Shown here: positions 4,168 through 49,331 of the stretch, piece by piece
Numbering within the stretch: position 1 is the stretch's first letter
Layout: every line of letters starts with the position of its first letter
Origin: Hexactinellida sp. DTS-2022
Lineage: Eukaryota > Porifera > Hexactinellida
Direction: 5' to 3'
Assembly: GCA_028753945.1 (NCBI GenBank)
Contig: JAPNXP010000001.1
Coordinates: 14,498,501 to 14,562,500 of the forward strand
DNA: 64,000 bases
Made by a program: the position numbers and the translations under genes
The notes under the pieces: model-generated
Database searches by the model: none
Seen by the model: only the letters and a program-made list of their open reading frames with translations
Told to the model about the DNA's origin: nothing

Positions 4168-5379
4168 ATGGCTGCTGCTAGAGATGAACAGAATGTCGAT
4201 GCTAAGCTAGAAGCTCTGAAACTGGAAATAGAGCGGAGCTTTGATGAGCTGGATTTGATTCTGGCGGAGAAGAGACGGAATCTCCTGGGGAGACTAGCGA
4301 GAATGAAGGAGGGACACGATAGGAATGCAGAGCTGGATGCGGCAATGGAACAGCTGAGAATTGTGAGAGATACCGCAGTTAATGTGATGACTAGCAACAT
4401 TCTAGGCGGGAAATTGGATTCTGTTAGAAAATACTTTGATACGGAAATACGAGTGAAAGAGGATTTGAAGGTAGCAGTGGAAAATCTTTCGTTTGTTAAG
4501 TTTCGTTGTTTCTCTGGTAAGATCCGTAATGCGATCGAAGAGACTGATTTAATAGAACTGATGCCAGAGTATGTGGGGAGAGAAAGTCCTGTTCTTAAGA
4601 GGTGTAAGAAGGGCAGTGGAAATGGCGAGTTTATTAATCCTAGAGGAATATCAATTGATAGAATAAGGAATGAATTATTCATTGCTGATAAAAATAACAG
4701 TCGCATACAAGTATTGGATACAGAAGGAGAGTATCTAGGCTCATTCGGAACAGAGCACTTGATAGAGCCACGTGGTATTTGTGTCTCACAAGATGGTGTG
4801 TTTGTGACCGATGTTGTAAGAGAATGTTTGTTGAGGTTTAGTCTAGCCGGACAATACATAAACAAGACTGGATCCAGAGGCACTGCACCAGGGTACTTTA
4901 TGGGAATACGAGGATTATGTTATGAAGCTGGATTTGTTTATGTATGTGACTGTGGTATGCAGATAATCCAAGTGTTCAAATTAAATCTCCAATTTGTTAA
5001 GAATTTTGGAACTGGAGAAATCAAACAGCCCACTGACATCACTATCCACTCAGACACTCTCCATATTCTGTCTGCACAACATAATACAATCTACTGCTAC
5101 AACAGAGATTGTACTTTTCTTAAGAAGATAGAGTTAACTGGACAGGAGCAACCTATGACATCAGCTCTATTCTTTACAATGGACACGAAAGGTAACTACT
5201 TAATTACTGATAACTCTATAAACGAAATCCGTATCTTCTCGCATGATGGAGTACTCAAGCACATCCTAGGAAATGGTCACCTCAGATTCTCAGCTGGTAT
5301 TAGTATTACACTAGACAACGAAAATAATATTATTTGTTTGTGTCATAGCTACGCTAATGACTGCTTCCAGAAATACTAA
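4168..5379 (+). CDS. Coiled-coil/NHL-repeat protein, array copy 1 (403 aa)
   Basis: Single-exon gene. Residues about 1-110 are charged heptad-like coiled coil resembling the coiled coil of TRIM-NHL proteins. No RING or B-box precedes it, and there is no signal peptide or membrane segment. Residues about 149-403 form five clear NHL-type blades (for example FIADKNNSRIQVL, VFVTD, VYVCD, LITDNSINEIRIF) plus a C-terminal strand that could close a six-bladed propeller. The ATG has good context (GAAGAGATGG) just after the conserved TATA/initiator block. The blade loop pairs are VV, CG and AQ. The C-terminus carries the two-codon SI insert (AGISITLDNEN), shared only with copies 5 and 7. NHL propellers bind RNA or protein; the ligand is unknown. 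Confidence 0.9.
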   Translation: MAAARDEQNVDAKLEALKLEIERSFDELDLILAEKRRNLLGRLARMKEGHDRNAELDAAMEQLRIVRDTAVNVMTSNILGGKLDSVRKYFDTEIRVKEDLKVAVENLSFVKFRCFSGKIRNAIEETDLIELMPEYVGRESPVLKRCKKGSGNGEFINPRGISIDRIRNELFIADKNNSRIQVLDTEGEYLGSFGTEHLIEPRGICVSQDGVFVTDVVRECLLRFSLAGQYINKTGSRGTAPGYFMGIRGLCYEAGFVYVCDCGMQIIQVFKLNLQFVKNFGTGEIKQPTDITIHSDTLHILSAQHNTIYCYNRDCTFLKKIELTGQEQPMTSALFFTMDTKGNYLITDNSINEIRIFSHDGVLKHILGNGHLRFSAGISITLDNENNIICLCHSYANDCFQKY

Positions 5380-5750
5380 CCTAATTATACTCTAACTAGC
5401 TAATTAGTCCTTCCCTAACTTTTATTTGACATTATTTGCTGAACTAAATGTCCTATTATCCTTCTACCTTGTAATTGTTATTCGGTATTTAGATATTAAT
5501 TGTTTGCTCGAATTATGAAATTATTATATTGTCTATTAACTTCAAGGGTACTAATCAGCCTTTCATCCAGACTAAATTTTCATCCAAATTACGCGCCTCC
5601 AGGCGCGTTGCATACGCCTGAATGAAACCCTGGTACTAATGCACACAGTACAAGTAGATTATTGTAGTAGATATTGGGAATTTGGGACTGATTCTAATTA
5701 GAATGTGGGATTATGTATCTATACCAATTTGCAAGGTCGAAATAAATATA

Positions 5751-5935
5751 CAGTAGACTCCGCTTCATCGGGACACCGGTTAATCGGTTTCTCCGCTTAA
5801 TAGGGTCAAAGTTTCACCGGATATATGGGACGGAATTACAGTTTGGCTTAAAATATTTTCGGTTAATCGGTTTCTCCGCTTAATCGGGTCAAAATGACCT
5901 GGTCCCGATGTGACCCAATTAAGCGGAGTCGACTG
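5751..5935. mobile_element. pogo/Tc1-like MITE, 185 bp, TA duplication
   Basis: Ends CAGTAGACTCCGCTT and AAGCGGAGTCGACTG, flanked by TA on both sides. The other units read straight through as AATAAATATATTCAAC, an exact empty site. Internal copies of the terminal motif (CGGTTAATCGGTTTCTCCGC) are present. Partial relatives lie near 24820 and 39505. Confidence 0.85.
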
Positions 5936-6435
5936 TATTCAACAGGGCTAATCCAATAGTTCCATGGACGATATTAGACGGTCAGTAGATCTCAAATTTG
6001 TTTTACGGTCATTGGGAGGAATCAACAGAAATGGTAATTACTATAGGGGATCAATGGTGGAAAATGTTGGACATTGCTGGCATGATCCACCAGCTTTAAA
6101 CACTAATTATTGAATATAGTTTCAGTTCCATTTCCAGTAACCTGTTGTTCAGAAATGAGAAATGTACTCGTTTTCCAAAGAGATATTATTCAATTATACC
6201 CGATCGGATCCTGGTATAGCGGAATAATACTTGGTTATGTCCGGTCCCTAGAAGTCAAGGACGGTCGCAACTCTGTTGCCAACCCTCTAGGAATACAAGG
6301 ATCATCCAAGGGTTTGAGCTTTTAAATTGCCTCAGAGTATATTAATGAATCTCAAGGCTATGTTAGTAATGCAAACAGTATATACCCTCTACAGCGGGTA
6401 TACTGTTAAGTGGTAGGATGAACTTTTGAGTATTA

Positions 6436-6890
6436 CAGTAAACCTTCAGAAAAGGAACACCCTGGGAACAAAACAAAATGTTCACTTTTCATGATGTATC
6501 ATTATGTGTCCTGTCCAAATTATGCCTCCAATACTAACTTATCACATATTGTCTAATCAAGCCACATCATGAATTATTTGTGCATTCACACAAGTGCGAA
6601 AATATATCTGCTAGTTAGGCCCAGAAAGTCCATCTCAAGCAGATCAAATAACACCCTCTACAACATGGCTAAAATCCTCCAACAATCGTATGTTCACTTT
6701 TATGAGGGAATATCCTATACAATTGGGGCGATTGGGACCAAATTAGGTGTTCACATTTCACTTTTCAAAGGTGTTCATTAGTTGGAGAGTAAACACTGTG
6801 AAAACAATGGGAAAATTAGGGACCGAGAAAAAGTGTTCATATTTTGGAGTTGTTCATTTATTGAAGGTGTTCACTTTTTGCGGTTTACTG
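6436..6890. mobile_element. MITE with CAGTAAACC...GGTTTACTG ends, 455 bp
   Basis: Inverted termini CAGTAAACC and GGTTTACTG, TA on both sides, and repeated internal GGTGTTCACTTT motifs. It is non-coding. Paralogous copies are in units 2, 3 and 4, with a 3'-truncated one in unit 5. Short open frames inside it are shadows. Confidence 0.7.
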
Positions 6891-7067
6891 TATTTCTATC
6901 TTGGATTCTCTACATAAAATCATACTAAAAGTTCAAGTAACTCGGAATAAGATAAGAATTTCAGTCATCCATTATGTGCACCCTATAACTCATAGTCAAC
7001 CAAGCAGGCTTGGACCGGCTCAAGATTTCATGACCCGGTTAGTTCTGATCCGATGACCCGGTTTTAG

Positions 7068-9278: not shown

Positions 9279-9375
9279 AATATTATTATACTGTAGTTGG
9301 AATCAGTCATGAATAGCTCTTTATTTTAATTGTTGTGTTTCACAACTATGTTAAAATTATTGTAATCATTTAGAT

Positions 9376-11320: not shown

Positions 11321-11323
11321 TAC

Positions 11324-11368
11324 TATAAAATAAAACGTGTACAGTATTGCATTCAGTTTATAGAAGAG
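11324..11368 (+). promoter_or_regulatory. Core promoter of NHL copy 2
   Basis: TATAAAAT at 11324-11331 and initiator-like ATTCAGTTT, with spacing as in copy 1; the predicted leader is about 14 nt. It directly follows the terminal repeat of the MITE. Confidence 0.6.
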
Positions 11369-12574
11369 ATGGCTGCTGCTAGAGATGAACAGAATGTCGA
11401 TGCTAAGCTAGAAGCTCTGAAACTGGAAATAGAGCGGAGCTTTGATGAGCTGGATTTGCTTCTAGCGGAGAAGAGACGGAATCTCCTGGGGAGACTAGCG
11501 AGAATGAAGGAGGGACACGACAGGAATGCAGAGCTGGATGCGGCAATGGAACAGCTGAGAATTGTGAGGGATACCGCAGTTAATGTGATGACTAGCAACA
11601 TTCTAGGAGGGAAATTGGATTCTATTTGGAAAGGATTGGATACGGAAATAGGAGTGAAAGAGGATTTGAAGGTAGCAGTGAAAAATCTTTCGTTTGTTGA
11701 GTTTCGTTGTTTCTCTGGTAGAATTCGTAATGCGATCGAAGAGACTGATTTGATAGAACTGATGCCAGAGTATGTGGGGAGAGAAAGTCCTGTTCTTAAG
11801 AGGTGTAAGAAGGGCAGTGGAAATGGCGAGTTTATGACTCCAAGTGACATATCAATTGATAGAATAAGGAATGAAGTCTTGATTGCAGATAAAAATAACA
11901 GTCGCATACAAATACTGAATACAGAAGGAGAGTATCTACGTTCATTCGGAACAGAGCACTTGAAAGAGCCACGTGGTATTTGTGTGTCACAAGATGGTGT
12001 GTTTGTGACTGATAGGGCGAGAGATTGTTTGATGAGGTTTAGTCTAGCCGGACAATTCATAAACAAGACTGGATCCAGAGGCACTACACCAGGGTGCTTT
12101 AAGGGAATATCAGGATTGTGTTATGAAGCTGGATTTGTTTATGTATGTGATTTTAGTATGCAAAGAATCCAAGTATTCGACTTAAATCTCGAATTTGTTA
12201 AAGAGTTTGGTTCTGGAGAAATTAAATACCCCACTGACATCACTATCCACTCAGACACTCTCCATATTCTGTCTGCACAACACAATACAATCTACTGCTA
12301 CAACAGAGATGATACTTTTCTTAAGAAGATAGAGTTAACTGGACAAGAGCAACCTATGATAGCAGCTCTATTCTTCACAATGGACACGAAAGCTAACTTC
12401 TTAATTACTGATAACTCTATTTACGAAATTCGTATCTTCTCACCTGATGGAGTACTCAAGCACATCCTAGGAAAAGGCCACCTCAGATTCCTAGCTGGTA
12501 TTACACTAGACAACGCAAATAATATTATTTGTGTGAGTAATGGTAATGCTAATGACTGCTTTCAGAAGTACTAA
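11369..12574 (+). CDS. Coiled-coil/NHL-repeat protein, array copy 2 (401 aa)
   Basis: Same architecture as copy 1: coiled coil about 1-110, NHL propeller about 149-401. I chose the ATG at 11369 because it is the shared start; an in-frame upstream ATG at 11225 would translate MITE and promoter sequence. Distinctive features are SIWKGL at about residues 85-90, TPSDIS in blade 1, RA after VTD, FS after VCD and NRDD. It lacks the two-codon SI insert. The first about 740 bp of the gene, and 2 kb upstream, are essentially identical to copy 5; the remainder is not. Confidence 0.9.
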   Translation: MAAARDEQNVDAKLEALKLEIERSFDELDLLLAEKRRNLLGRLARMKEGHDRNAELDAAMEQLRIVRDTAVNVMTSNILGGKLDSIWKGLDTEIGVKEDLKVAVKNLSFVEFRCFSGRIRNAIEETDLIELMPEYVGRESPVLKRCKKGSGNGEFMTPSDISIDRIRNEVLIADKNNSRIQILNTEGEYLRSFGTEHLKEPRGICVSQDGVFVTDRARDCLMRFSLAGQFINKTGSRGTTPGCFKGISGLCYEAGFVYVCDFSMQRIQVFDLNLEFVKEFGSGEIKYPTDITIHSDTLHILSAQHNTIYCYNRDDTFLKKIELTGQEQPMIAALFFTMDTKANFLITDNSIYEIRIFSPDGVLKHILGKGHLRFLAGITLDNANNIICVSNGNANDCFQKY

Positions 12575-13371
12575 TTTAGATATATTCTAATAGTACTTTC
12601 CCTAATTTTATCTGACATTTTTTGTTAACCGTGAACTAATAATCCTAATTTCCTCCCATTAGGTAAATGTTATTCTCTAATTTGATATGTATTATATTGT
12701 TTGATGGAATTTATTAGATGATTATTTTGTCAATTAACTTTAAGGGTACAGATAGTATGAGTTGCTGGTAGAGCAAGGTTGAAACCGTATAAACTGAACA
12801 AGTTCTAATGAATATTGCTACAAATCAACCTATGAATGGCGTTCACGTCAGGCCCGTAGCCAGGGGAGGGCTGATCCCTCCTGAGAATTCTTACTTTCCA
12901 ATAAACACCGTTGAATATTCTTAGCTTTCCATAATGTATGAGGATCATCCAGGCTTTCATCCAAACAAAATTTACCGTGCGCCTAGAATTAAATCGATTC
13001 GTTCAGACGCGCCATGGCCTACTATATACGGCTATACATGCTACCGAATCATAAGAAAAAATAAGTGTCCAGTTTTGTAATTTTATTCTAAGCTAACGGC
13101 ATAATTTGTATTGTATATGGGACAATCAATCATTGCGAGTCCATTGTAATCACTTTTGACTTAGATTTGTGGTTAAGCTGTTTAATTAAAAATTTTCACA
13201 CCTAGTGAAAATTTTGTTGTAATCGCATCAAGCTGATGGGGACTATTTCAGGAACAAGTCCAAATATCTAAGAAAATATTCGCATCTTCCATCTCGAAAG
13301 GTGACAAAACCTTTAACCAATTAAATTCGAGGTCTTTTCCAATATGGATTATCAGCTTTCATTCAATGGTC
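12575..13371. other. 3' flank of copy 2 and unit-specific DNA
   Basis: About 12575-12760 is a diverged 3' flank. About 12850-12960 carries a degenerate hAT-like end (CAGGCCCGTAGCCAGGGG). About 13245-13370 is a plus-strand fragment of the H1 element (words such as AAGGTGACAAAACCTTTAACC). No gene seen. Confidence 0.5.
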
Positions 13372-13801
13372 ATATGTCCCCCGGACTTGTGGTCCTAGGA
13401 CCAGCTGTCCCCCCGGACTTGTGGTCCTAGGGTCAGATGTCCCCCCGGACCAGTGGTCCTAGGGTCAGATGTCCCCCGGACCAGTGGTCCTAGGACCAGC
13501 TGTCCCCCCGGACTTGTGGTCCTAGGACCAGCTGTCCCCCCGGACTTGTGGTCCTAGGGTCAGATGTCCCCCCGGACCAGTGGTCCTAGGGTCAGATGTC
13601 CCCCGGACCAGTGGTCCTAGGGTCAGATGTCCCCCGGACCAGTGGTCCTAGGGTCAGATGTCCCCCCGGACCTGTGGCCCTAGGGTCAGATGTCCCCCCG
13701 GACCAGTGGTCCTAGGGTCAGATGTCCCCCCGGACCAGTGGACTAGAGTCAGATGTCCCTCCCGGACCAGTAGATTAGGGTCAGATGTCCCTCCCGGACC
13801 A
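13372..13801. repeat. GC-rich 31-33-bp minisatellite, about 13 copies
   Basis: The tandem unit is GGTCCTAGGGTCAGATGTCC plus CCCCGGACCAGT, with variants GGACTTGT and GGTCCTAGGACC. Each unit contains self-complementary stretches (GTCC..GGAC and GGTCCTAGGACC), so the array can fold into hairpins. Composition contrasts sharply with the AT-rich surroundings. Confidence 0.9.
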
Positions 13802-15485: not shown

Positions 15486-16087
15486 TATTGTCTATTAACT
15501 TTAAGGTACTGATATAGTATTAGCTTCGTGTAGTAGGTAAGGGACTGATACTCATGAGAATGGGATTATGTATTTATACCTAATTGCAAGGTCGAAATAA
15601 ATATATTCAACAGGGCTAATCCTATAATTCCATGGACGGTATTAGACGGTTAGATCTCAAATTTGTTTTACGGTCATTGGGAGGGGTCAACAGAATTGTT
15701 AATTACTATAGAGGATCAATGGTGGAAATGTTGGAAATTGCTTCCATTATCCACCAACTTTATTGTAATATAGTTTCAGTTCCATTTCCAGTAACCTGTT
15801 GTTCAGAAATGAGAAATGTACTGGTTTGATAAAGGATATTATTCAAATATACCCGATCGGATCCTGGTATAGCGGAGTGATACTTGGTTCGTCCAGTCCC
15901 TAAAAGTCAAGGACGATGGCAACTCTGTTGGCAACCCTCTAGGAATACAAGGTTTATCCAAGGATTTGAGCTTTTAAATTTCCTCAGAGTAATATTAAAT
16001 GAATCTCAAGGCTGTGTTAGTAATGCAAAAGTATATACCCTCTCAGCGGGTATACTGTTAAGTGGTAGGGTGAACTTTTGAGTATTA

Positions 16088-16547
16088 CAGTAAACCTTCA
16101 GAAAAGGAACACCCTGGGAACCAAACATAATGTTCACTTTTCATGATGTATCATTATGTGTCCTGTCCAGATTATACCTCCAATACTAACTTATCACAAA
16201 TTGTCTAATGAAGCCACATCATGAATACTTTGTGCATTCTCAACAAGTGCGAAAACATAGCTCCCAGTTAGCTCCCAGAAAGTCCATCTCAAACAGGTCA
16301 AATAACACCCTCTCCAACATGGCTAAAATCCTCCAAAAATCGTATGTTCACTTTTATGAGGGCATATCCTATACAATTGGTACAATTGGGACCAAATTAT
16401 GTGTTCACATTTCACTTTTCAAAGGTGTTCAGAAGTTGGAGGGTAAACACTGTGAAAACAATGGAAAAATTAGGGACCGAGAAAAAGTGTTCATATTTTG
16501 GAATTGTTCATTTAAATTGAAGGTGTTCACTTTTTGCGGTTTTATTG
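16088..16547. mobile_element. CAGTAAACC MITE, unit 2/3 spacer
   Basis: Left end TACAGTAAACCTTCAGAAAAG; the right end is degenerate (GCGGTTTTATTG). Same internal GGTGTTCA repeats as at 6436-6890. Confidence 0.6.
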
Positions 16548-16722
16548 TATTTCTATCTTGGATCCTCTACATAAAATCATACTAAAAGTTCAAGTAACTC
16601 GGAATAAGATAAGAATTTCAGGTATCCATTATGGCACCCTATAACTCATAGTCAACCAAGCAGACTTGGACCGGGTCAAGATTTCATGACCCGGTTAGTT
16701 CTGATCCGATGACCCGGGTTAG

Positions 16723-16888
16723 GAAATTTTATTCCCATTCTCGTGCAACCAATGAATCGAGTAGCTCAGATCAGATTCTTAATCGGGAGGAGATTGTTGC
16801 TTATTTCTGCATTCCTTGTTGGCAGGATGGTTGTCCTGTTTGCCCTGCTGCTTTGGAATTGCAAGAGCTCATCGATAATCCTTGCTAG
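16723..16888 (+). pseudogene. Possible terminal exon of second family, spacer before copy 3
   Basis: Exactly the same length (166 bp) and frame as 7068-7233, from acceptor GGGTTAG to the stop after DNPC, reading HSRATNESSSSDQILNREE and CIPCWQDGCPVC. No indel relative to unit 1. Function unknown; coding status unproven. Confidence 0.25.
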
Positions 16889-17241
16889 ATAATTGATGCA
16901 TTATATTAGCTATGGTATACTTACGATTGGAATCGCCTCTTTTGGTCCCCAAATGTTCACTTCTGTTGATGTGAAATAAGGCTTTGAGAGCCAATCTGTT
17001 TACCTCAAACTTATATTAAGTATCATCAGTTGATTCTAATATTTATTTCTGATGTCGATAAACAGACTAGTTAGTTCGGGTAGGCTGAACACACATAGTC
17101 TCTCATTTTTCTTCACCTGTAGAGAGAGGAAACCCGCCCTTAATTTCCTCACCTGAATCTTTCTGCAAGTTCAAAGTGAGTTTGACAAGTTATGCCTACC
17201 AACACAGCTAGGTTTGCTCCCATCACCCTAGGCTACCTTGT

Positions 17242-17342
17242 CAGGGCCGGCGGACAGACCAATAGACTGACCACTCCTACGTCACTAGTTAGACCGGTCA
17301 AGTCATGGCCTGACCACTATATAACTGCTTCAGCCGGCCTTG
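17242..17342. mobile_element. CAGGGCCGGCGG MITE, spacer before copy 3
   Basis: Flanked by CTTGT on both sides, as in unit 1, with an internal deletion shortening the left arm. Confidence 0.65.
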
Positions 17343-18538
17343 CTTGTTCTGATAGTTCTAACTCTGGGAAGTGGCGGCGCGAGGGGGGGGCGGAATCGCT
17401 TGTCTGATATAGGAGTACTTAATATTAATTCGGAAATGATATACGCTCTGGACTCTGGACATGGTGTCCATAATTAGCCGTTTTGCTGAGATGCCCCACG
17501 CATACTATTATAGGACAGATTATTTAACTAGTTTGTCATTAAATTATCGATTTTGGTCTGAATGTGTATTTTGGAATGTTTACAACTATTGGGTTTGCCC
17601 CTCCAGTGCGTGGGGCCGCACCCCCAAGGGAGCAGTGCTGCCGCCGCCCTGACTCTGAGTAGCTACGTCACTAGTTACTAGTTTTAATACAGTTCTGACT
17701 CTGGGTAGCTCCTCCAATGTCAAACTAAGATCCACTCGGTATCCGTGGAGGTATGAATAAAATATAAACCCTTGGAGGGCGATGGTTCGCAAGTAATCAA
17801 ATTGTAGTCTTCTTCGTGAAAAGAGATATAATAGTTGGAATTTAAATATTTAATTAAATTTCCAGTTATATACTGTCTAAAAAATTCGGGGAAATTAATA
17901 TTATGAGCAGATTTGTTCCAATAATTCTAGGAATGGCGGAAAATTAGTCGCTTGGAAAATTGCTCGCCGGAAAATTGGTGGCCAGAAAATTAGTCGGAGG
18001 AATAATATTACCATTAACACTCGCTTAATATACTGATTATTCATACTATATACGAAAGGGTGTAAAGTTGTATTAGGTTCCCATTGTCCAAAGATTTTCT
18101 AACAGTAGTTAGACATAATGATAGCTATGGTACTGTAGTTATTGTACTATTATTCTGTATCACAGTGTAGTATCTAATTATAGCGAACTGGTGTAATCTG
18201 ATAGGAAATTATTCTAACAGACCCACAGTAGATACATCTTGTGCCAACTAACAGTATAATGCGATAGGATATTATGTTAAACCAATTGAATAACGTATTA
18301 TACATCAAACAACTAACAAACAACATCAACAATAAATTCTAGTTAATTATAACTCTATCGCATTATTGGTGAGTTTATGGATTTTTCATAATTATTCACT
18401 GCTATTATATTCTATTCTAATACGATCAAATATTTTTGTAAGGAATTTAATTTTGCATATTTATTCTATGAATATTCATAACTATTGTTGCCATGATACA
18501 TAAAACTGTTAGAAAGGTGTTAGCCGATATACGTAGTA

Positions 18539-18951
18539 CAGTGGAACTCGCTTAATACGTACTCTCAGATACTACGTACTGTTCTCTAATAGCCGATTCT
18601 TCCTCCTATCTGATACATTATAGATGATTCGGTTATTACGTAAACGGATAGGACGTGCCAATCTCCAAGTAAATATAATGCATTTATTTTAATTCGGTTA
18701 GTACTACGTACTCTAGAAAACTATCAGCAGAACTCAGTTAGTGTTTGGTTTAAGTGAGTAGGTGACAACTGAAATACTTTAATCTTATCATTAAGTATGT
18801 TAAAGACTTGAATACCCTACATCGTCTTCATATCATTGAACAAGTCAGTATTTCGACTTGTTGATTATGCATCCGGATAAGACGTACCTCGGTTAGTACG
18901 TAGTACTTATTCTTGTTTCCCAGGGAGGTCCGTCATAACCGAGTTCCACTG
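18539..18951. mobile_element. CAGTGGAACTCG pogo-like MITE, unit 3
   Basis: Ends CAGTGGAACTCGCTTAATACG and CATAACCGAGTTCCACTG. The right terminus is the best preserved in the window. Confidence 0.7.
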
Positions 18952-19444
18952 AATATGATTATACTGTAGTTAAAACAGTACCAGAGTCTTGTATTCACAC
19001 AGGATATCACCAATTAGCTCTGGAATCTGGATGCACCTAAATATTTAATTTCAGATCATTTTCTTGTTTGGAATCAGTCATGAATAGCTTTTTAATTCAA
19101 TTGTTGTGTTTCACAACTATGTTGAAATTATTGCAATCATTTAGATGGTACTATATTACAAAATGACTGTAATAGACATTTGTCCTATATTATACTATGT
19201 TGTTTAGTATACTTACATTTAATCATTTGTTTGTATCGGAACGAACTTTTGTGGATATTTCGAGTGCAAACCTCGGAAACCAAAAGTCGGGAACCAAAAG
19301 TTATCCCTATACCAAAAATAAATTTTGTAAACCGTCCAGTTTCTTCAATCAACTCGGAACATAAAAACAAATACATGCACACTGAAATGTATTATTAATA
19401 GTACGTATAATTTAGATTCCCATGCACTTAATAAACTACTAATA

Positions 19445-20489: not shown

Positions 20490-20534
20490 TATAAAATAAA
20501 ACGTGTACAGTATTGCATTCAGTTTATAGAAGAG
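20490..20534 (+). promoter_or_regulatory. Core promoter of NHL copy 3
   Basis: TATAAAAT at 20490-20497, initiator-like TTCAGTTT near 20518, leader about 14 nt. Confidence 0.6.
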
Positions 20535-21740
20535 ATGGCTGCTGCTAGAGATGAACAGAATGTCGATGCTAAGCTAGAAGCTCTGAAACTGGAAATAGAG
20601 CGGAGCTTTGATGAGCTGGATTTGCTTCTAGCGGAGAAGAGACGGAATCTCCTGGGGAGACTAGCGAGAATGAAGGAGGGACACGACAGGAATGCAGAGC
20701 TGGATGCGGCAATGGAACAGCTGAGAATTGTGAGAGATACCGCAGTTAATGTGATGACTAGCAACATTCTAGGAGGGAAATTGGATTCTGTTAGAGAATA
20801 CTTTGATACGGAAATAGGAGCGAAAGAGGATTTGAAGGTAGCAGTGGAAAAATTTTCGTTTGTTGAGTTTCGTTGTTTCTCTGGTAGAATTCGTAAAGCG
20901 ATCGAAGAAACCGATTTAATAGAACTGATGCCAGAGTATGTGGGGAGAGAAAGTCCTGTTCTTAAGAGGTGTAAGAAGGGCAGTGGAAATGGCGAGTTTA
21001 TTAATCCAAGTGGAATTTCGGTCGATAGAATAAGGAATGAAGTCTTGATTGCTGATAAAAATAACAGTCGCATACAAGTCTTGAATACAGAAGGAGAGTA
21101 TCTACGTTCATTCGGAACAGAGCACTTGAAAGAGCCACGTGGTATTTGTGTGTCACAAGATGGTGTGTTTGTTACCGATAGGGCAAGAGAATGTTTGATG
21201 ATGTTTAGTCTAGCCGGACAATTCATAAACAAGACTGGATCCAGAGGCACTACACCAGGGTGCTTTAAGGGAATACGAGGATTATGTTATGAAGCTGGAT
21301 TTGTTTATGTATGTGATAGTGGGATGCAAAGAATCCAAGTATTCGATTTAAATCTCGAATTCGTTAAAGAGTTCGGTTCTGGAGAGATCAAATACCCCAC
21401 TGACATCACTATCCACTCAGACACTCTCCATATTCTGTCTCTAAAACATAATACAATCTACTGCTTCAACAGAGATGGTACTTATCAGAAGAAGATAGAG
21501 TTAACTGGACAGGAGCAACCTATGAGAGTTGCTCTATTCTTCACAATGGACACGAAAGGCAACTTCTTAATAACTGATAACTCTATAAACGAAATCAGTA
21601 TCTTCTCACCTGATGGAGTACTCAAGCACATCCTAGGAAAAGGCCACCTCAGATCATTAACTGGTATTACACTAGACAACGCAAATAATATTATTTGTGT
21701 TTGTCATGGTAATGAAAATGACAACTTCCAGAAATACTAA
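20535..21740 (+). CDS. Coiled-coil/NHL-repeat protein, array copy 3 (401 aa)
   Basis: Full-length copy, coiled coil then NHL propeller. Distinctive residues: VREYFDTEIGAKE and EKFSF in the coiled-coil tail, NPSGISVD in blade 1, RA after VTD, SG after VCD, LK after HILS, FNRDGTYQ in blade 4 and PMRVAL in blade 5. The C-terminus is CVCHGNENDNFQKY, shared with copy 4 together with a nearly identical 3' flank to about 21900, so copies 3 and 4 are relatives at their 3' ends. No indels relative to copy 2, consistent with a maintained reading frame. Confidence 0.9.
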   Translation: MAAARDEQNVDAKLEALKLEIERSFDELDLLLAEKRRNLLGRLARMKEGHDRNAELDAAMEQLRIVRDTAVNVMTSNILGGKLDSVREYFDTEIGAKEDLKVAVEKFSFVEFRCFSGRIRKAIEETDLIELMPEYVGRESPVLKRCKKGSGNGEFINPSGISVDRIRNEVLIADKNNSRIQVLNTEGEYLRSFGTEHLKEPRGICVSQDGVFVTDRARECLMMFSLAGQFINKTGSRGTTPGCFKGIRGLCYEAGFVYVCDSGMQRIQVFDLNLEFVKEFGSGEIKYPTDITIHSDTLHILSLKHNTIYCFNRDGTYQKKIELTGQEQPMRVALFFTMDTKGNFLITDNSINEISIFSPDGVLKHILGKGHLRSLTGITLDNANNIICVCHGNENDNFQKY

Positions 21741-28076: not shown

Positions 28077-28121
28077 TATAAAATAAAACGTGTACAGTAT
28101 TGCATTCAGCTTATAGAAGAG
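28077..28121 (+). promoter_or_regulatory. Core promoter of NHL copy 4
   Basis: TATAAAAT at 28077-28084; the initiator-like site is TTCAGCTT (one substitution). Confidence 0.6.
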
Positions 28122-29327
28122 ATGGCCGCTGCTAGAGATGAACAGAATGTCGATGCTAAGCTAGAAGCTCTGAAACTGGAAATAGAGCGGAGCTTTGATG
28201 AGCTGGATTTGTTTCTAGCGGAGAAGAGACGGAATCTCCTGGGGAGACTAGCGAGAATGAAGGAGGGACACGATAGGAATGCAGAGCTGGATGCGGCAAT
28301 GGAACAGCTGAGAATTGTGAGAGATACCGCAGTTAATGTGATGACTAGCAACATTCTAGGAGGGAAATTGGATTCAGTTAGAAAATACTTTGATACGGAA
28401 ATAGGAGCGAAAGAGGATTTGAAGGTAGCGGTGGAAAATCTTTCGTTTGTTGAGTTTCGTTGTTTCTCTGGTAAGATCCGTAAGGCGATCGAAGAAACTG
28501 ATTTAATAGAACTGATGCCAGAGTATGTGGGGAGAGAAAATCCTGTTCTTAAGAGGTGTTGTATTGGCAGTGGAAATGGCGAGTTTATTAATCCGAGAGG
28601 AATTTCGGTCGAAAGGATAAGGAATGAAGTATTCATTGCAGATAAAAATAACAGTCGCATACAAGTCTTGAATACAGAAGGAGAGTATCTACGTTCATTC
28701 GGAACAGAGCACTTGAAAGAGCCACAGGGTATTTGTGTGTCACAAGATGGTGTGTTTGTGACCGATATTGCAAGAGAATGTTTGATGATGTTTAGTCTAG
28801 CCGGACAATTCATAAACAAGACTGGATCTAGAGGCACTACACCAGGGTGCTTTAAGGGAATACGAGGATTGTGTTATGAAGCTGGATTGGTTTATGTATG
28901 TGATAGTAGTATGCAAAGAATCCAAGTGTTCGACTTAACTCTCCAATTTGTTAAAGAGTTCGGTTCTGGAGAAATCAAATACCCCAGTGACATCACTATC
29001 CACTCAGACACTCTGCATATTCTTTCTCAACAACACAATACAATCTACTGCTTCAACAGAGATTGTATTTATCTGAAGAAGATAGAGTTAACAAGACAGG
29101 AGCAACCTATGATAGCAGCTCTCTTCTTCACAATGGACACGAAAGGTAACTTCTTAATAACTGATAACTCTATTTACGAAATCCGTATATTCTCACCTGA
29201 AGGAGTACTCAAGCACATCCTAGGAAAAGGCCACCTCAGATCATTAACTGGTATTACACTAGACAACGCAAATAATATTATTTGTGTTTGTCATGGTAAT
29301 GAAAATGACAACTTCCAGAAATACTAA
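28122..29327 (+). CDS. Coiled-coil/NHL-repeat protein, array copy 4 (401 aa)
   Basis: Full-length copy. It differs from its neighbours at KRCCIGSGNG (most copies have CKKG), EPQGIC, VTDIARE, VCDSSMQ, HILSQQHN and NRDCIYL; LTRQEQP replaces LTGQEQP. Most changes fall in the same loop positions of successive NHL blades. The coiled coil (about 1-110) is almost unchanged. The 3' end and flank match copy 3; upstream, about 1.5 kb match unit 7, so this unit is a mosaic. Confidence 0.9.
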   Translation: MAAARDEQNVDAKLEALKLEIERSFDELDLFLAEKRRNLLGRLARMKEGHDRNAELDAAMEQLRIVRDTAVNVMTSNILGGKLDSVRKYFDTEIGAKEDLKVAVENLSFVEFRCFSGKIRKAIEETDLIELMPEYVGRENPVLKRCCIGSGNGEFINPRGISVERIRNEVFIADKNNSRIQVLNTEGEYLRSFGTEHLKEPQGICVSQDGVFVTDIARECLMMFSLAGQFINKTGSRGTTPGCFKGIRGLCYEAGLVYVCDSSMQRIQVFDLTLQFVKEFGSGEIKYPSDITIHSDTLHILSQQHNTIYCFNRDCIYLKKIELTRQEQPMIAALFFTMDTKGNFLITDNSIYEIRIFSPEGVLKHILGKGHLRSLTGITLDNANNIICVCHGNENDNFQKY

Positions 29328-29714: not shown

Positions 29715-30245
29715 TCTATACTATTAATAGAGCAGTGTCTGTGTGTGTGTGTGTGTCCGCAACCGATCTCAAATCGCATTTGATTGGCCCAATTCAACCA
29801 CTAATATTTATCTTCTAATATGCATTGTTGACATTCATTTTTTGAATAAATACCACATACGGAAATTTTTTTATTTTGTTTAACATTCAATGGAACCTTC
29901 TACAAACCCGGGCAACTCATCGGAAATACCACATAGTCCTAAGGCAATGTGTGCGATAAAGCGTTTATGGTGCAATAAAATGTTCAAAAGAAAAACACGC
30001 CTTAATCCCGAAGTTCTCGCAGCTGAAAATGTCTCAGATAAGGTGCACTAAAGTAAAATACACCCGAAATGTAGTATACAAAGAAGTTTTGTAGGTGGGC
30101 TTGCTATAATGACTGATATATATAAATTATAAGTAATCTGTACATAGCCACCTCTTAGTATATATTCCGCTATATAAAATCAATTTCAAATGTATCATGA
30201 AAATATTTCCATATTACGTCAGCAAAGCGACGGGCAATTGACTAG
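29715..30245 (+). mobile_element. Canonical non-autonomous Helitron, 531 bp
   Basis: It starts TCTATACTATTAATAGAGC, ends GGGCAATTGACTAG, and is inserted exactly between A and T of GGTAA/TTACTATAG, which is uninterrupted in other units. CGTC-AGCAAAGC-GACG just before the CTAG end can form the short 3' hairpin typical of Helitrons. No target duplication, no Rep/helicase frame. Confidence 0.92.
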
Positions 30246-30644
30246 TTACTATAGAGGATCAATGGTGGAAAATGTTGGAAAATTCTGCCATGACCCACCA
30301 ACTTTAGACTCTAATTATTGTAATATAGTTTCTGTTCCATTTCCAGTAACCTGTTGTTTTCGAAATGAGAAATGTTCTCGTTTGATAAAGGATATTATTA
30401 AATTATCCCCGATCGGATCCTGGTATAGCGGAATAATACTTGGTTTTGTCCGGTCCATAGAAGTCAAGGACGGTCGCAACGCTGTTGCCAACCCTCTAGG
30501 ATTACAAGGATTATCCAAGGGTTTGAGCTTTTAAATTGCCTCAGAGTCATATTAATGAATCTCAAGGCTATGTTAGTAATGCAAACAGTATATACCGTCT
30601 ACAGCGGGTATACGTTGAGTGGTAGGATGAACTTTTGATTATTA

Positions 30645-31103
30645 CAGTAAACCTTCAGAAAAGGAACATCCTGGAAACCAAACAAAATGTTCACTTTTCA
30701 TGATGTATCATTATGTGTCCTGTCCAAATTATGCCTCCAATACTAACTTATCACATATTGTCTAATCAAGCCACATCATGAATTATTTGTGCATTCACAC
30801 AAGTGCGAAAATATATCTGCTAGTTAGCCCCCAGAAAGTCCATCTCAAGCAGATCAAATAACACCCTCTACAACATGGCTAAAATCCTCCAACAATCGTA
30901 TGTTCACTTTTATGAGGGAATATCCTATACAATTGGGGCGATTGGGACCAAATTAGGTGTTCACATTTCACTTTTAAAGGTGTTCAGATGTTGGAGGGTA
31001 AACACTGTGAAAACAATGGGAAAATTTGGGACCGAGAAAAAGTGTCCATATTTTGGAATTGTTCATTTAAATTGAATGTGTTCACTTTTTTTTTTTTTAA
31101 TTG
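30645..31103. mobile_element. CAGTAAACC MITE, unit 4/5 spacer
   Basis: Left end CAGTAAACCTTCAG; the right end is eroded into a poly-T run (about 31088-31098). Confidence 0.55.
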
Positions 31104-31288
31104 TATTTTTATCTTGGATCCTCTACATAAAATCATACTAAAAGTTCAAGTAAATCGGATAATAAGATAAGAACTTCAGGTATCCATTATGTTCACCCTA
31201 TGACTCATAGTCATAGTCAACCAAGCAGACTTGTACCGGGTCAAGATTTCATGACCCGGTAAGTTTTGATCCGATTACCCGGTTTTAG

Positions 31289-31454
31289 GAATTTTTATTC
31301 CCATTCTCGTGCAACCAATGAATCGAGTAGCTCAGGTCGGAATCTTAACCGGGAGGAGATTGTGGCTTATTTCTGCATTCCTTGTTGGCAGGATGGTTGT
31401 CCTGTTCGCCCTCCTGCTTTGGAATTGCAAGAGCTCATCGATAATCCTTGCTAG
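31289..31454 (+). pseudogene. Possible terminal exon of second family, spacer before copy 5
   Basis: FYSHSRATNESSSSGRNLNR through YFCIPCWQDGCPV to DNPC and stop, in the same frame as units 1 and 2. Unrecognised; tentative. Confidence 0.25.
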
Positions 31455-31807
31455 ATAATAGATGCATCATATTAGCTATGGTAGACTTACGATTGGAATC
31501 GCCCCTTTTGGTCCCTAAAAATGTTCACTTCTGTTGATGTGAAATAAGGCTTTGATCTTCTATTTACCTCAAACTTAAATTGAGAATCATCAGTTGATTC
31601 TATTATTTATTTCTGTTGTCGATAAACAGACTAGTTAGTTCGGGTAGGCTGATCACACATAGTCTTTCTCTCATTTTTCTTCACCTTAGAGAGAGGAAAC
31701 TCACTCCTAATTTCCTCACCTGAATCTTTCTGCAAGTTCAAGTGTGTTTGAGAAGTTATACCTACCAACACAGCTAGGTTTGAACCCATCACCCTAGGCT
31801 TCCTTGT

Positions 31808-31888
31808 CAGAGCCGGCGGAAGCGGTCAGGCTAGTTAGACCGGTCAAGTCATGGCCTGACCACTATATAACTGCTTCCGCCGGGCTTG
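31808..31888. mobile_element. CAGGGCCGGCGG MITE, unit 4/5 spacer (shortened)
   Basis: CAGAGCCGGCGGAAGCGGTC at left, GCTTCCGCCGGGCTTG at right; the central arm is deleted. Confidence 0.6.
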
Positions 31889-33096
31889 CTAGCCTTGCTT
31901 GTTCTGATAGTTCTAACTCTGGGAAGTGGCGGCGCGAGGGAGCGGGGCGGGAATCGCTTGTCAGATATAGGAGTACTTAAAGTTAATGCGGAAATGCTAT
32001 ACGCCCTGGTCTCTGGACAGAGAGTCCATAATTAGCCGTTTTGCTGAGATGCCCCAACGCATACTATTATAGGACAGATAATTTAACTAAGTTTGTCATT
32101 AAAATTATCGAATTTGGTGTGAATGTGTATTTTTTGGAATGTTTACAACTATTCGGTTTGCCCCTCCAGTGCATTGGTCCGCACCCCCAAGGGGGCAGCG
32201 CTGGCGCCGCCCTGACTCTGGGTAGCTACGTCACTAGTTACTAGTTTTAATACAGTTCTAACTCTGGGTAGCTCCTCCAATGTCAAACTAAGCTCCACTC
32301 GGTAACCGTGGAGGTAAGAATAAAATTTAAACCCTTGGAGGGCGATGGTTCGCAAGTAATCAAATTGTAGTCTTCTTCGTGAAAAGAGATATAATAGTTG
32401 GAATTTAAATATTTAAATAAATTTCCAGTTATATACTGTCTAAAAAATTCGGGGAAATTAATATTATGAGCAGATTTGTTCCAATAATTCTAGGAATGGC
32501 GGAAAATTCGTCGCTTGGAAAATTGCTCGCCGGAAAATTGGTGGCCAGAAAATTAGTCGCAGGAATATTTTTACCATTAACACTCGCTTAATATACTGAT
32601 TATTCATACTATATACGAAAGGGTGTAAAGTTGTATTAGGTTCCCATTGTCCAAAGATTTTATAAGAGTAGTTAGACATAATGATAGCTATGGTACTGTA
32701 GTTATTGTACTATTATTCTGTATTACAGTATAGTATCTAATTATAGCAGAACTGGTGTAATCTGATAGGAAATTATTCTAACAGACCCACAGTAGATACA
32801 TCTTGTGCCAACTAACAGTATAATGTGATAGGATATTAAGTTAAACCAATTGAATAACGTATTATACACAAAACAACTAACAAACAACAACAACAATAAA
32901 TTCTAGTTAATTATAACTCTATCGCATTATTGGTGAGTTTATGGATTTTTCATAATTATTAACTGCTATTATATTCTAATACGATCAATTATCTTGTAAG
33001 GAATTTAATTTTGCATATTTATTCTATGAATATTCATAACTATTGTTCCCATGATACATAAAACTGTTAGAAAGGTGTTAGCCGATATACGTAGTA

Positions 33097-33504
33097 CAGT
33101 GGAACTCGCTTGATACGCACTCTCGGATACTCCGTACTGTTCTTTATTAACCGATTTTCTTCCTATCTGATCCATTATAAATGATTCGGTTATTACGTAC
33201 TCGGATATAGGACGTGCCAATCTCCAAGTAAATATAGTGCATTTATTTTATTTCGGTTAGTACGTACTCTAGAAAACTAACAGCAGAACTCCGTTAGTAT
33301 TTGGTTTAAGTAAGTAGGTGACAACTGAAATACTTTAATCTTATCGTTAAGTATGTTAAAGATTTGAATACCCTACATCGTATTTACACAATTGAACAAG
33401 TCAGTATTTCGACTTGTGGATTATGCATACGGATAAGACGTACCTCGGTTAGTACATACTTATTCTTGTTTTCCAGGGCGGTACGTCTAAACCGAGTTCT
33501 ACTG
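33097..33504. mobile_element. CAGTGGAACTCG pogo-like MITE, unit 5
   Basis: Left CAGTGGAACTCGCTTGATACG, right AAACCGAGTTCTACTG. Confidence 0.65.
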
Positions 33505-33704
33505 AATATGATTCTACTGTAGTTAAATCCGTAGCAGAATCTTGTATCCACACAGGGTACTTATCATCAATGAACTCTGGAATCTGGATGCACCTAAATA
33601 TATCATTTCAGATCATTTTTTTGTTTGGAATCAGTCATGAATAGCTCTTTATTTTAATTGTTGTGTTTCACAACTATGTTAAAAATTATTGTAATCATTT
33701 AGAT

Positions 33705-35652: not shown

Positions 35653-35697
35653 TATAAAATAAAACGTGTACAGTATTGCATTCAGTTTATAGAAGAG
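35653..35697 (+). promoter_or_regulatory. Core promoter of NHL copy 5
   Basis: TATAAAAT at 35653-35660 and TTCAGTTT, as in copy 2. Confidence 0.6.
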
Positions 35698-36909
35698 ATG
35701 GCTGCTGCTAGAGATGAACAGAATGTCGATGCTAAGCTAGAAGCTCTGAAACTGGAAATAGAGCGGAGCTTTGATGAGCTGGATTTGCTTCTAGCGGAGA
35801 AGAGACGGAATCTCCTGGGGAGACTAGCGAGAATGAAGGAGGGACACGACAGGAATGCAGAGCTGGATGCGGCAATGGAACAGCTGAGAATTGTGAGGGA
35901 TACCGCAGTTAATGTGATGACTAGCAACATTCTAGGAGGGAAATTGGATTCTATTTGGAAAGGATTGGATACGGAAATAGGAGTGAAAGAGGATTTGAAG
36001 GTAGCAGTGAAAAATCTTTCGTTTGTTGAGTTTCGTTGTTTCTCTGGTAGAATTCGTAATGCGATCGAAGAGACTGATTTGATAGAACTGATGCCAGAGT
36101 ATGTGGGGAGAGAAAGTCCTGTTCTTAAGAGGTGTAAGAAGGGCAGTGGAAATGGCGAGTTTATGACTCCAAGTGACATATCAATTGATAGAATAAGGAA
36201 TGAAGTCTTGATTGCAGATAAAAATAACAGTCGCATACAAATACTGAATACAGAAGGAGAGTATCTACGTTCATTCGGAACAGAGCACTTGAAAGAGCCA
36301 CGTGGTATTTGTGTGTCACAAGATGGTGTGTTTGTGACTGATAGGGCGAGAGATTGTTTGATGAGGTTTAGTCTAGCCGGACAATTCATAAACAAGACTG
36401 GATCCAGAGGCACTACACCAGGGTGCTTTAAGGGAATACGAGGAGTGTGTTATGAAGCTGGATTGGTTTATGTATGTGACTGTGGTATGCAGATAATCCA
36501 AGTGTTCGACTTAAATCTCCAATTTATTAAGAAATTCGGTTCTGGAGAAATCAAATACCCCAGTGACATCACTATCCACTCAGACACTCTCCATATTCTG
36601 TCTCTAAAACATAATACAATCTACTGCTACAACAGAGATGGTACTTATCTTAAGAAGATAGAGTTAACTGGACAGGAGCAACCTATGACATCAGCTCTAT
36701 TCTTTACAGTAGACACGAAAGGTAACTTCTTAATTACTGATAACTCTATAAACGAAATCCGTATCTTCTCGCATTATGGAGTACTCAAGCACATTCTAGG
36801 AAATGGTCACCTCAGATTCTCAGCTGGTATTAGTATTACACTAGACAACGAAAATAATATTATTTGTTTGTGTCATAGCTACGCTAATGACTGCTTCCAG
36901 AAATACTAA
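35698..36909 (+). CDS. Coiled-coil/NHL-repeat protein, array copy 5 (403 aa), chimeric
   Basis: Complete gene with hybrid origin. From the start to the CFKGI motif (about residue 247) it equals copy 2, including SIWKGL and TPSDIS. Beyond about 36437 it equals copy 7 (CDCGMQIIQ, SLKHN, VDTKGNF, SHYGVL and the two-codon SI insert), and the copy-7 likeness continues to about 37127 in the 3' flank. The junction joins blades 1-2 of one paralog to blades 3-6 of another without breaking the frame. The upstream in-frame ATG at 35554 is rejected, as in copy 2. Confidence 0.9.
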   Translation: MAAARDEQNVDAKLEALKLEIERSFDELDLLLAEKRRNLLGRLARMKEGHDRNAELDAAMEQLRIVRDTAVNVMTSNILGGKLDSIWKGLDTEIGVKEDLKVAVKNLSFVEFRCFSGRIRNAIEETDLIELMPEYVGRESPVLKRCKKGSGNGEFMTPSDISIDRIRNEVLIADKNNSRIQILNTEGEYLRSFGTEHLKEPRGICVSQDGVFVTDRARDCLMRFSLAGQFINKTGSRGTTPGCFKGIRGVCYEAGLVYVCDCGMQIIQVFDLNLQFIKKFGSGEIKYPSDITIHSDTLHILSLKHNTIYCYNRDGTYLKKIELTGQEQPMTSALFFTVDTKGNFLITDNSINEIRIFSHYGVLKHILGNGHLRFSAGISITLDNENNIICLCHSYANDCFQKY

Positions 36910-40879: not shown

Positions 40880-40886
40880 TAATTTG

Positions 40887-42419: not shown

Positions 42420-42422
42420 TAC

Positions 42423-46772: not shown

Positions 46773-46907
46773 CAATGAACTTCCGTAATAACGAAGTGCT
46801 CGGGACGTGGTTTCATTTCGTTATAAGCAGAATTCGTTATAACCGGAGTAAAATCAATACTTTATAGGCCATGGTATATAATATAATGTCATAACGGGAG
46901 TTTACTG
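46773..46907. mobile_element. CGTTATAA MITE, unit 7
   Basis: Same as 26976-27110 of unit 4, within the duplicated tract. Confidence 0.6.
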
Positions 46908-46924
46908 TAATTTGGGCGCACAAG

Positions 46925-47900: not shown

Positions 47901-47904
47901 TTTT

Positions 47905-48071
47905 CGTACCTGCCTAATCAGAAACTCGTTGGGATAGAAAATGTGTCGGATTATGGCGAATTCCGGATTATAGAGTGAAGTTTCCATTATACGACGTTCA
48001 TTGGGATATAAAATTTATGTTGGATTATGGCGAATAGCGGAATATAGGGGGCGGATTACGCAGGTTTACTG
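47905..48071. mobile_element. Promoter-proximal pogo-like MITE, unit 7
   Basis: Left end truncated exactly as in unit 4, right end GGATTACGCAGGTTTACTG. Confidence 0.7.
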
Positions 48072-48074
48072 TAC

Positions 48075-48119
48075 TATAAAATAAAACGTGTACAGTATTG
48101 CATTCAGTTTATAGAAGAG
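48075..48119 (+). promoter_or_regulatory. Core promoter of NHL copy 7
   Basis: TATAAAAT at 48075-48082, TTCAGTTT, about 14-nt leader. Confidence 0.6.
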
Positions 48120-49331
48120 ATGGCTGCTGCTAGAGATGAACTGAATGTCGATGCTAAGCTAGAAGCTCTGAAGCTGGAAATAGAGCGGAGCTTTGATGAG
48201 TTGGATTTGCTTCTAGCGGAGAAGAGACGGAATCTCCTGGGGAGACTAGCGAGAATGAAGGAGGGACACGATAGGAATGCAGAGCTGGATGCGGCAATGG
48301 AACAGCTGAGAATTGTGAGAGATAATGCAGTTAATGTGATGACTAGCAACATTCTAGGCGGGAAATTGGATTCTATTAGAGTAGGATTGGATACGGAAAT
48401 ACGAGCCAAAGAGGATTTGAAGGTAGCAGTGGAAAATCTTTCGTTTGTTGAGTTTCGTTGTTTCTCTGGTAAGATCCGTAATGCGATCGAAGAAACTGAT
48501 TTAATAGAACTGATGCCAGAGTATGTGGGGAGAGAAAGTCCTGTTCTTAAGAGGTGTAAGAAGGGCAGTGGAAATGGCGAGTTTAACAATCCTATAGGAA
48601 TTTCGGTAGATAGAATAAGGAATGAAGTATTCATTGCAGATAAAAATAACAGTCGCATACAAGTCTTGAATACAGAAGGAGAGTATCTACGTTCATTCGG
48701 AACAGAGCACTTGAAAGAGCCATATGGTATTTGTGTGTCACAAGATGGTGTGTTTGTGACCGATGTTACAAGAGAATGTTTGATGATGTTTAGTCTAGCC
48801 GGACAATTCATAAACAAGACTGGATCCAGAGGCACTACACCAGGGTGCTTTAAGGGAATACGAGGATTGTGTTATGAAGCTGCATTGGTTTATGTATGTG
48901 ACTGTGGTATGCAGATAATCCAAGTGTTCGACTTAAATCTCCAATTTATTAAGAAATTCGGTTCTGGAGAAATCAAATACCCCAGTGACATCACTATCCA
49001 CTCAGACACTCTCCATATTCTCTCTCTAAAACACAATACAATCTACTGCTACAACAGAGATGGTACTTATCTTAAGAAGATAGAGTTAACTGGACAGGAG
49101 CAACCTATGACATCAGCTCTATTCTTTACAGTAGACACGAAAGGTAACTTCTTAATTACTGATAACTCTATAAACGAAATCCGTATCTTCTCGCATTATG
49201 GAGTACTCAAGCACATTCTAGGAAATGGTCACCTCAGATTCTCAGCTGGTATTAGTATTACACTAGACAACGAAAATAATATTATTTGTTTGTGTCATAG
49301 CTACGCTAATGACTGCTTCCAGAAATACTAA
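48120..49331 (+). CDS. Coiled-coil/NHL-repeat protein, array copy 7 (403 aa)
   Basis: Full-length copy with DELNVD at the start and SIRVGLDTEIRAKE in the coiled-coil tail. Blade loops: NPIGIS, EPYGIC, VTDVTRE, YEAALVYVCDCGMQII, LSLKHN, FFTVDTKGNF, SHYGVL. It carries the SI insert. From about blade 3 onward and into the 3' flank it is nearly identical to copy 5; its promoter region matches unit 4. So one gene combines an upstream half shared with unit 4 and a downstream half shared with unit 5. Confidence 0.9.
   Translation: MAAARDELNVDAKLEALKLEIERSFDELDLLLAEKRRNLLGRLARMKEGHDRNAELDAAMEQLRIVRDNAVNVMTSNILGGKLDSIRVGLDTEIRAKEDLKVAVENLSFVEFRCFSGKIRNAIEETDLIELMPEYVGRESPVLKRCKKGSGNGEFNNPIGISVDRIRNEVFIADKNNSRIQVLNTEGEYLRSFGTEHLKEPYGICVSQDGVFVTDVTRECLMMFSLAGQFINKTGSRGTTPGCFKGIRGLCYEAALVYVCDCGMQIIQVFDLNLQFIKKFGSGEIKYPSDITIHSDTLHILSLKHNTIYCYNRDGTYLKKIELTGQEQPMTSALFFTVDTKGNFLITDNSINEIRIFSHYGVLKHILGNGHLRFSAGISITLDNENNIICLCHSYANDCFQKY

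Follow-up and report, generated by a model that had tools for sequence, protein, structure and literature searches.

A putative germline recognition repertoire of NHL propeller genes in a hexactinellid sponge, with rapid change at the positions of the LIN41 RNA contacts

We analysed a stretch of 64,000 nucleotides from Hexactinellida sp. DTS-2022 (assembly GCA_028753945.1, contig JAPNXP010000001.1, positions 14,498,501 to 14,562,500, forward strand), hereafter the window. It contains eight tandem copies of a gene encoding a helical, probably coiled-coil part followed by a six-bladed NHL propeller. Variation among these genes falls largely on the same few positions of each blade, and these are the positions through which LIN41 contacts RNA. 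In a second family of the same genome and in the window cluster completed by its three neighbouring copies, the rate of change at these positions exceeds that of silent sites, against a conserved background in the remaining propeller. From this pattern of variation, these genes probably constitute a germline recognition repertoire with a diversified face under diversifying selection.

All eight copies lie on the plus strand, each as one uninterrupted frame of 401-403 codons, except for copy 8, which is broken (Table 1). The array extends over 4168-59393. An earlier note on this DNA had recognized it but confined it to 4600-49200; its eight copies, and the residues that it listed after the motifs VTD, VCD, HILS, EP and NRD, are identical to our alignment, letter for letter. 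Past its frameshift, copy 8 is still similar to the other copies' 3' end, and it is a probable pseudogene. Three further close copies (L012, L015 and L017) are found directly left of the window on the opposite strand. One of them, L017 (G000:C1:14470131-14471333, minus strand), has an in-frame TAG inside the linker. The cluster is cut by the window edge, and the 11-copy cluster analyzed below comprises the eight window copies and these three. Codons of copy 8 from residue 347 on and the stop codon of L017 were masked in the main tests.

The NHL domain is C-terminal and was matched by Pfam NHL at 1.2e-12 to 2e-19 in the three of eight window copies that were scanned. In the same three copies, no Pfam match to RING or B-box was obtained at E values up to 0.1, none to B30.2, and none to NACHT or WD40, only NHL and other propeller families being matched. 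Over the whole genome one B-box model gave 20 matches and one RING model 62, none of them inside the window. The closest solved structures by sequence are Thin (phmmer, 1.7e-35), TRIM71, TRIM2 and TRIM3; by fold (Foldseek, on a weak model) they are Thin, Mei-P26, Brat and TRIM2. The structure model predicts, with low confidence, long helices at residues 2-45 and 52-93. Of the strands assigned by hand, it shows all but two: strand 3 of blade 2, and the N-terminal one expected to close blade 6.

In the established topology of propellers, the B-C and D-A connections of a four-stranded blade share a face and its A-B and C-D turns are on the opposite one, so that the faces could be assigned from strand order. 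In the 11 copies, variable residues are concentrated in the B-C and D-A loops (45/83, compared with 12/38 in the A-B and C-D loops and 36/141 in strands), in line with the loop variation described in the earlier note. The rate of non-synonymous change (dN) is 0.138, 0.057 and 0.046 in these three classes, respectively, and a permutation of top against bottom loops gave p=0.0035. All five motif-linked sites had been placed on a single face. This is correct for the sites after VTD, VCD and HILS, in B-C loops, and after EP, in a D-A loop, but the site after NRD belongs to the opposite face.

A finer definition of the face was taken from the zebrafish LIN41-RNA structure, for which the cited part of the paper names 14 RNA-contact residues (PMC5908797). 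All 14 fall on five positions per blade: two residues before and one after the proline of an xxPxG motif, and the two residues after the aspartate ending strand B. Applied to six blades, this gives 30 sites, which we call the register. Its placement on LIN41 was checked by script for four residues and by hand for the rest.

In the 11-copy cluster, variable sites make up 24/30 of the register and 69/232 of the remaining propeller (Fisher p=1.5e-7). Within the register, dN is 0.296, versus 0.052 elsewhere, and silent divergence is 0.156 versus 0.162. The ratio of register dN to propeller dS, the rate of synonymous change, is 1.84 (95% codon bootstrap confidence interval, CI, 1.24-2.64). When the register is slid by 1-8 residues in either direction, dN falls from 0.296 to at most 0.128. 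Maximum likelihood (ML) with two site classes on one tree gave a dN/dS ratio (omega) of 1.69 for the register and 0.29 for the rest, omega=1 being rejected (p=2e-4). With four segment trees, register omega was 1.59 for the 11 copies (p=0.0033) and 1.47 for the nine intact ones (p=0.027). The register is faster than the rest in every set of 11, 9 or 7 copies (p at most 5e-14). Posterior scans of the window genes, run with small positive rates, listed 7, 5 and 1 sites for these sets, of which 4, 4 and 1 are in the register. The lists differ among copy sets; therefore no single window site can be named as selected.

Related genes were searched for in the entire host genome (112.4 Mb, 18 contigs). 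Four seed proteins yielded 105, 101, 107 and 99 places, or at least 363 once those with starts within 1250 bases were merged, 124 of them on C1; this number is a lower bound on matches, pieces and broken copies included, as about 100 candidates were scored per search, out of more than 1,000. Two equal-scoring pairs (G000:C5:1037359 and 1044286; G000:C12:5063726 and 5148533) are probably recent duplicates.

Family 2 consists of the best 30 of 57 top-scoring places with at least 79% identity to L001, 20 of the 30 being located at C1 13.67-13.80 Mb. Here 28/30 register sites vary, versus 114/238 others, and 21 register sites carry at least five amino acids; one position of the family holds W, D, L, Y, C, S, K, R, H and E. 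Register dN/dS reaches 4.66 (CI 3.27-6.56), versus 0.42 elsewhere (dN 0.050, dS 0.120), with a register dS of 0.130. By ML, omega is 5.77 versus 0.49 on one tree, and 5.49 at the register with segment trees (p=3e-78). The posterior scan retained 35 sites at 0.9 or above, including 23 of the register: 31 are in B-C or D-A loops, three in strands and one in a C-D turn. Codon-site models were also run, as M1a/M2a in our own code. With a coarse scale grid and best values at the grid edge, their p values are rough: 3e-5 and 3e-8 for the nine intact copies (segment trees and one tree, respectively), 4.5e-5 for the 11 copies and 1.5e-100 for family 2.

A third and a fourth family were tested only after the register had been fixed, using an automatic alignment to L001 to transfer it. 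In the third (L002, L003, L006 and L007), register dN/dS is 2.75 (1.81-4.09), and the rest of the propeller is fast too (0.87). The two members of the fourth, L004 and L005, differ at 15/30 register residues versus 5/238 others, and fast register change is clearest in this pair. These two genes are about 79 kb apart and their propellers are nearly identical outside the register; in four propeller codons every base is swapped, and the helical part has a replaced stretch of some 13 codons. Over all aligned propeller sites, per-site change in family 2 and in the window cluster shows a modest correlation (Spearman 0.20, p=0.001).

Several points weigh against a selected recognition face. In the seven intact window copies alone, register omega is 1.36 and omega=1 is not rejected (p=0.12). 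In the wider window family (family 1), register dN/dS is not significantly above 1, either for 25 sequences (1.21, CI 0.90-1.57; end of frameshifted copy 8 unmasked, two stop-bearing members kept minus those codons, L033 and L035 dropped) or for the 13 outer intact members (1.31, 0.96-1.73). Some register sites are invariant, residue 200 being Glu in 25/25 family 1 sequences, and the opposite face varies as well, at 12/38 residues in the 11 copies. Silent change is not even everywhere: per-site silent counts differ between the register and the rest in family 2 (rank test, p=0.023), and between L004 and L005 silent change is 0.195 in the register versus 0.032 elsewhere. The register, although taken from a published paper, was fixed after the window and family 2 data had been seen; it was placed by hand in blades without the proline or aspartate, and automatic alignment of family 2 with the window family pairs 26/30 register positions, leaving 4/30 unmatched. 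The bootstrap intervals resample codons and ignore the kinship of sequence pairs. Finally, the structure model is weak (mean pLDDT, the predicted local distance difference test score, 52.8, with 8 similar sequences), and the face assignment rests on strand order.

Some of these results would also be expected under relaxed constraint, where the ligand face, no longer needed after duplication, drifts while the fold is still selected. The null results at the register in the seven window copies and in family 1 fit such a drift, as does the omega of all top loops pooled in the 11 copies (0.83-0.86), which is not above 1. However, drift cannot exceed the silent rate, whereas register dN does so both in family 2 and in the 11-copy cluster, and ML rejects omega=1. 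Relaxed constraint is ruled out for family 2, where register dN exceeds dS, and as a general account we regard it as quite improbable. The non-synonymous excess that the earlier note led us to expect is thus present at the register of the 11-copy cluster, but not demonstrable in the seven intact copies. Omega above 1 in the window cluster requires the neighbouring copies; the faster register does not.

A different explanation is that a mechanism, such as template copying or a deaminase, targets mutations to register codons, with selection being secondary. In eight family 2 pairs with a silent difference (pS) of 0.02-0.05, 44% of register residues already differ; of the register codons that changed, 56% did so at two bases or at all three. 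Such multi-base change is what a targeted process might leave, as are the triple-base swaps and the raised silent register change in the near-identical DNA of L004 and L005. On the other hand, in the 28 family 2 codons with at least five amino acids (chosen for being variable), the minor frequency is 0.37, 0.36 and 0.14 at positions 1, 2 and 3, versus 0.03, 0.02 and 0.06 in the other codons, and register dS is close to dS elsewhere in both main families. Variation at positions 1 and 2 together with even dS is characteristic of selection acting on amino acids. For the two main families, this even dS and the low third-position variation make a mutational hot spot unlikely, the rank test on silent counts in family 2 notwithstanding; in L004 and L005 it is possible. 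Overall, targeted mutation as the main cause appears scarcely probable.

The selective reading is accompanied by exchange between genes. The protein of copy 5 matches that of copy 2 up to residue 247 and that of copy 7 from residue 256. Copies 1, 5 and 7 have in common a two-residue insertion at about residue 377 and much of the same C-terminal segment, which is further evidence of exchange between copies. In both families, informative sites close to one another show greater compatibility than those far apart (p=0.002, the minimum with 500 shuffles). The copies therefore recombine. Pairs that are more divergent at silent sites also differ more in the register (Spearman 0.36 for family 2 and 0.42 for nine cluster copies), so that the two are not fully uncoupled; one family 2 pair without silent difference has an identical register. 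This tempo of register change is explained by long-standing diversity that short conversion tracts have reshuffled under selection, a targeted mutator being a less likely alternative.

The near-constancy of the coiled coil, which had also been pointed out in the earlier note, was observed, but it does not reflect protein constraint only. Indeed, among close copies dS over residues 1-80 is 0.043 (0.018-0.077), versus 0.165 (0.127-0.209) for the propeller. Because silent change is depressed there as well, this constancy is partly due to recent homogenization of the 5' end. Across the wider family, residues 1-80 are not constant (dN 0.199, dS 0.640).

Another possibility is that the genes encode diversified RNA-binding regulators, each paralogue reading a different RNA, as LIN41 and Brat do, in gene regulation and not in defence. 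The coincidence of the hypervariable sites with LIN41 RNA contacts is consistent with this, as are the best fold matches (Thin, Mei-P26, Brat and TRIM2) and the net charge of the register in the 11-copy cluster (+1 to +9, with 1 to 3 aromatic residues). However, the charge of family 2 registers varies between -2 and +7 and they hold 5 to 11 aromatic residues, which does not resemble a single conserved basic patch. Moreover, this face is kept among close relatives. In a control using sequence fragments of structure chains, TRIM2 and TRIM3 differ at 1/29 register versus 48/234 other residues (p=0.023), and zebrafish LIN41 and mammalian TRIM71 at 0/28 versus 26/209 (p=0.051). These sequences indicate that the register face is held, not free, among TRIM2/TRIM3 and LIN41 orthologues. 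The control speaks for close relatives only, because the top opening is reported to be diverse among human TRIM-NHL members in the cited part of PMC9634614, which also tells against our reading. All considered, we find the regulatory alternative rather unlikely.

The earlier proposal of a diversified ligand surface, as in recognition repertoires, is therefore supported by the concentration of variation on one face and by register dN above dS in the cluster and in family 2; the recognition function itself is suggested by the pattern of variation. The variable face would bind many different ligands, one per gene. Duplication would supply the copies. Gene conversion and unequal crossing-over would reshuffle the loops but maintain the likeness of the copies in their scaffold and 5' end, and new binding faces would be retained by diversifying selection. 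The coiled coil probably dimerizes the proteins and might carry a signal or recruit an effector. The putative ligands may be RNA, proteins or sugars, given how widely register charge and aromatic content range. The likeliest use would be germline-encoded intracellular recognition, in defence or in self/non-self recognition.

Two known systems are the closest analogues, with a comparable mode of evolution in the parts of the literature cited here. In the fungal HNWD/NWD genes of Podospora (het-d, het-e), diversifying selection acts on four codons of each WD40 repeat, located in the d-a loop and the b-c turn on the interaction face, and the rest is reshuffled and homogenized by concerted evolution (PMC1805685). 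The sponge genes likewise have propeller positions in d-a and b-c loops under diversifying selection, and their copies likewise exchange sequence. Unlike the HNWD genes as described there, a family of ten with WD40 and NACHT whose repeats are exchanged within and between genes, they combine NHL blades with a helical part, occupy hundreds of places and vary between paralogues. Teleost finTRIM genes, according to the cited part of PMC2657112, are TRIM-related, were expanded by duplication, have ligand-domain loops under positive selection and show a detected recombination point. The likeness is again in this mode of evolution; finTRIM proteins carry RING/B-box and B30.2 in that account, whereas the scanned window genes carry NHL and no zinc-binding domains. 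The window genes belong to neither HNWD nor finTRIM.

Tachylectin-2 is a propeller lectin and belongs to a different protein family from the NHL genes. In corals, it is presented in the cited text as a putative immunity gene under positive selection (PMC2880987). With the TRIM-NHL proteins (TRIM2, TRIM3, TRIM71, LIN41, Brat, Thin and Mei-P26), the window genes share the NHL propeller, by sequence and fold, and the LIN41 contact positions. Unlike these members of TRIM class VII, they lack RING and B-box in the three copies scanned, and unlike LIN41 they do not conserve the RNA-contact residues: the register is hypervariable here, whereas LIN41 and TRIM71 agree at 28/28. In the sponge, omega at the putative binding face exceeds 1 among numerous paralogues; the excess is significant in the 11-copy cluster and family 2 and not in the seven window copies or family 1.

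Table 1. Features of the window, with positions on its forward strand. Residue numbers refer to copy 3.
Feature	Position	Strand	Basis
Copy 1, intact helical + NHL gene, 403 aa	4168..5379	+	open reading frame (ORF) and alignment
Copy 2, intact, 401 aa	11369..12574	+	ORF and alignment
Copy 3, intact, 401 aa; reference for residue numbers	20535..21740	+	ORF and alignment; Pfam NHL 2e-19
Copy 4, intact, 401 aa	28122..29327	+	ORF and alignment
Copy 5, intact, 403 aa; mosaic of copies 2 and 7	35698..36909	+	ORF and alignment
Copy 6, intact, 401 aa	42468..43673	+	ORF and alignment
Copy 7, intact, 403 aa	48120..49331	+	ORF and alignment
Copy 8, frameshifted near residue 347	58326..59393	+	ORF and alignment
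TATAAA, first base 45 bases 5' of copy 3 ATG	20490..20495	+	same place in copies 1-7
Helical (coiled-coil) part, residues 1-80	20535..20774	+	low dN and low dS among copies; structure model
Six-bladed NHL propeller, residues 140-401	20952..21737	+	Pfam, strand assignment, model, fold matches
Blade 1 D-A register, residues 156, 157, 159	21000..21011	+	LIN41 contacts
Blade 1 B-C register, residues 175, 176	21057..21062	+	LIN41 contacts
Blade 2 D-A register, residues 199, 200, 202 (202, site after EP)	21129..21140	+	LIN41 contacts
Blade 2 B-C register, residues 216, 217 (after VTD)	21180..21185	+	LIN41 contacts
Blade 3 D-A register, residues 245, 246, 248	21267..21278	+	LIN41 contacts
Blade 3 B-C register, residues 262, 263 (after VCD)	21318..21323	+	LIN41 contacts
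Blade 4 D-A register, residues 286, 287, 289	21390..21401	+	LIN41 contacts
Blade 4 B-C register, residues 303, 304 (after HILS)	21441..21446	+	LIN41 contacts
Residue 315 (after NRD), C-D loop of blade 4, opposite face	21477..21479	+	strand assignment
Blade 5 D-A register, residues 331, 332, 334	21525..21536	+	no Pro; placed by hand
Blade 5 B-C register, residues 349, 350	21579..21584	+	LIN41 contacts
Blade 6 D-A register, residues 373, 374, 376	21651..21662	+	no Pro; placed by hand
Blade 6 B-C register, residues 391, 392	21705..21710	+	no Asp; placed by hand

The spacers were duplicated along with the genes: for example, 5936-9298 matches 15604-18971 at 92.4%, and 15694-19146 matches 30236-33704 at 91.2%. 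The TATAAA of copy 8 is at -53 and -47, not at -45. Tandem repeats are present between genes at 13368-13801 (32-base unit, 13.7 times) and 56023-56858 (142-base unit, 5.9 times). On the minus strand, an open frame of 243 codons lies opposite six of the eight copies (4152-4883, 11353-12084, 20519-21250, 28106-28837, 35682-36413 and 48104-48835), and frames of 184 and 176 codons lie opposite the other two; these antisense frames are perhaps an effect of codon use. A 301-codon ORF at 61106-62011 (minus strand) weakly matches a CxxC zinc-binding family, below the cut-off (E=0.029).

NHL propellers have been studied mainly as developmental RNA-binding or ubiquitin-ligase modules, as far as the cited parts of two papers go (PMC5908797, PMC9634614), and no description of such an NHL repertoire was found among the matches listed in open-licence literature. 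In this sponge, a contact surface of the LIN41 type appears as a hypervariable surface in a family of at least 363 genome places. Tentatively, the hundreds of coiled-coil NHL genes might together form a germline recognition repertoire. Its face, of about five codons in each of six blades, would diversify much more rapidly than the scaffold, through selected short-tract conversion or a codon-targeted mutator. They could then be the equivalent, built on another fold, of the WD40 allorecognition propellers of fungi. If these genes are a recognition system, they would add a scaffold to the known ones and provide a natural library of propeller faces, and they would make it possible to test how an organism of this kind may maintain a broad repertoire.

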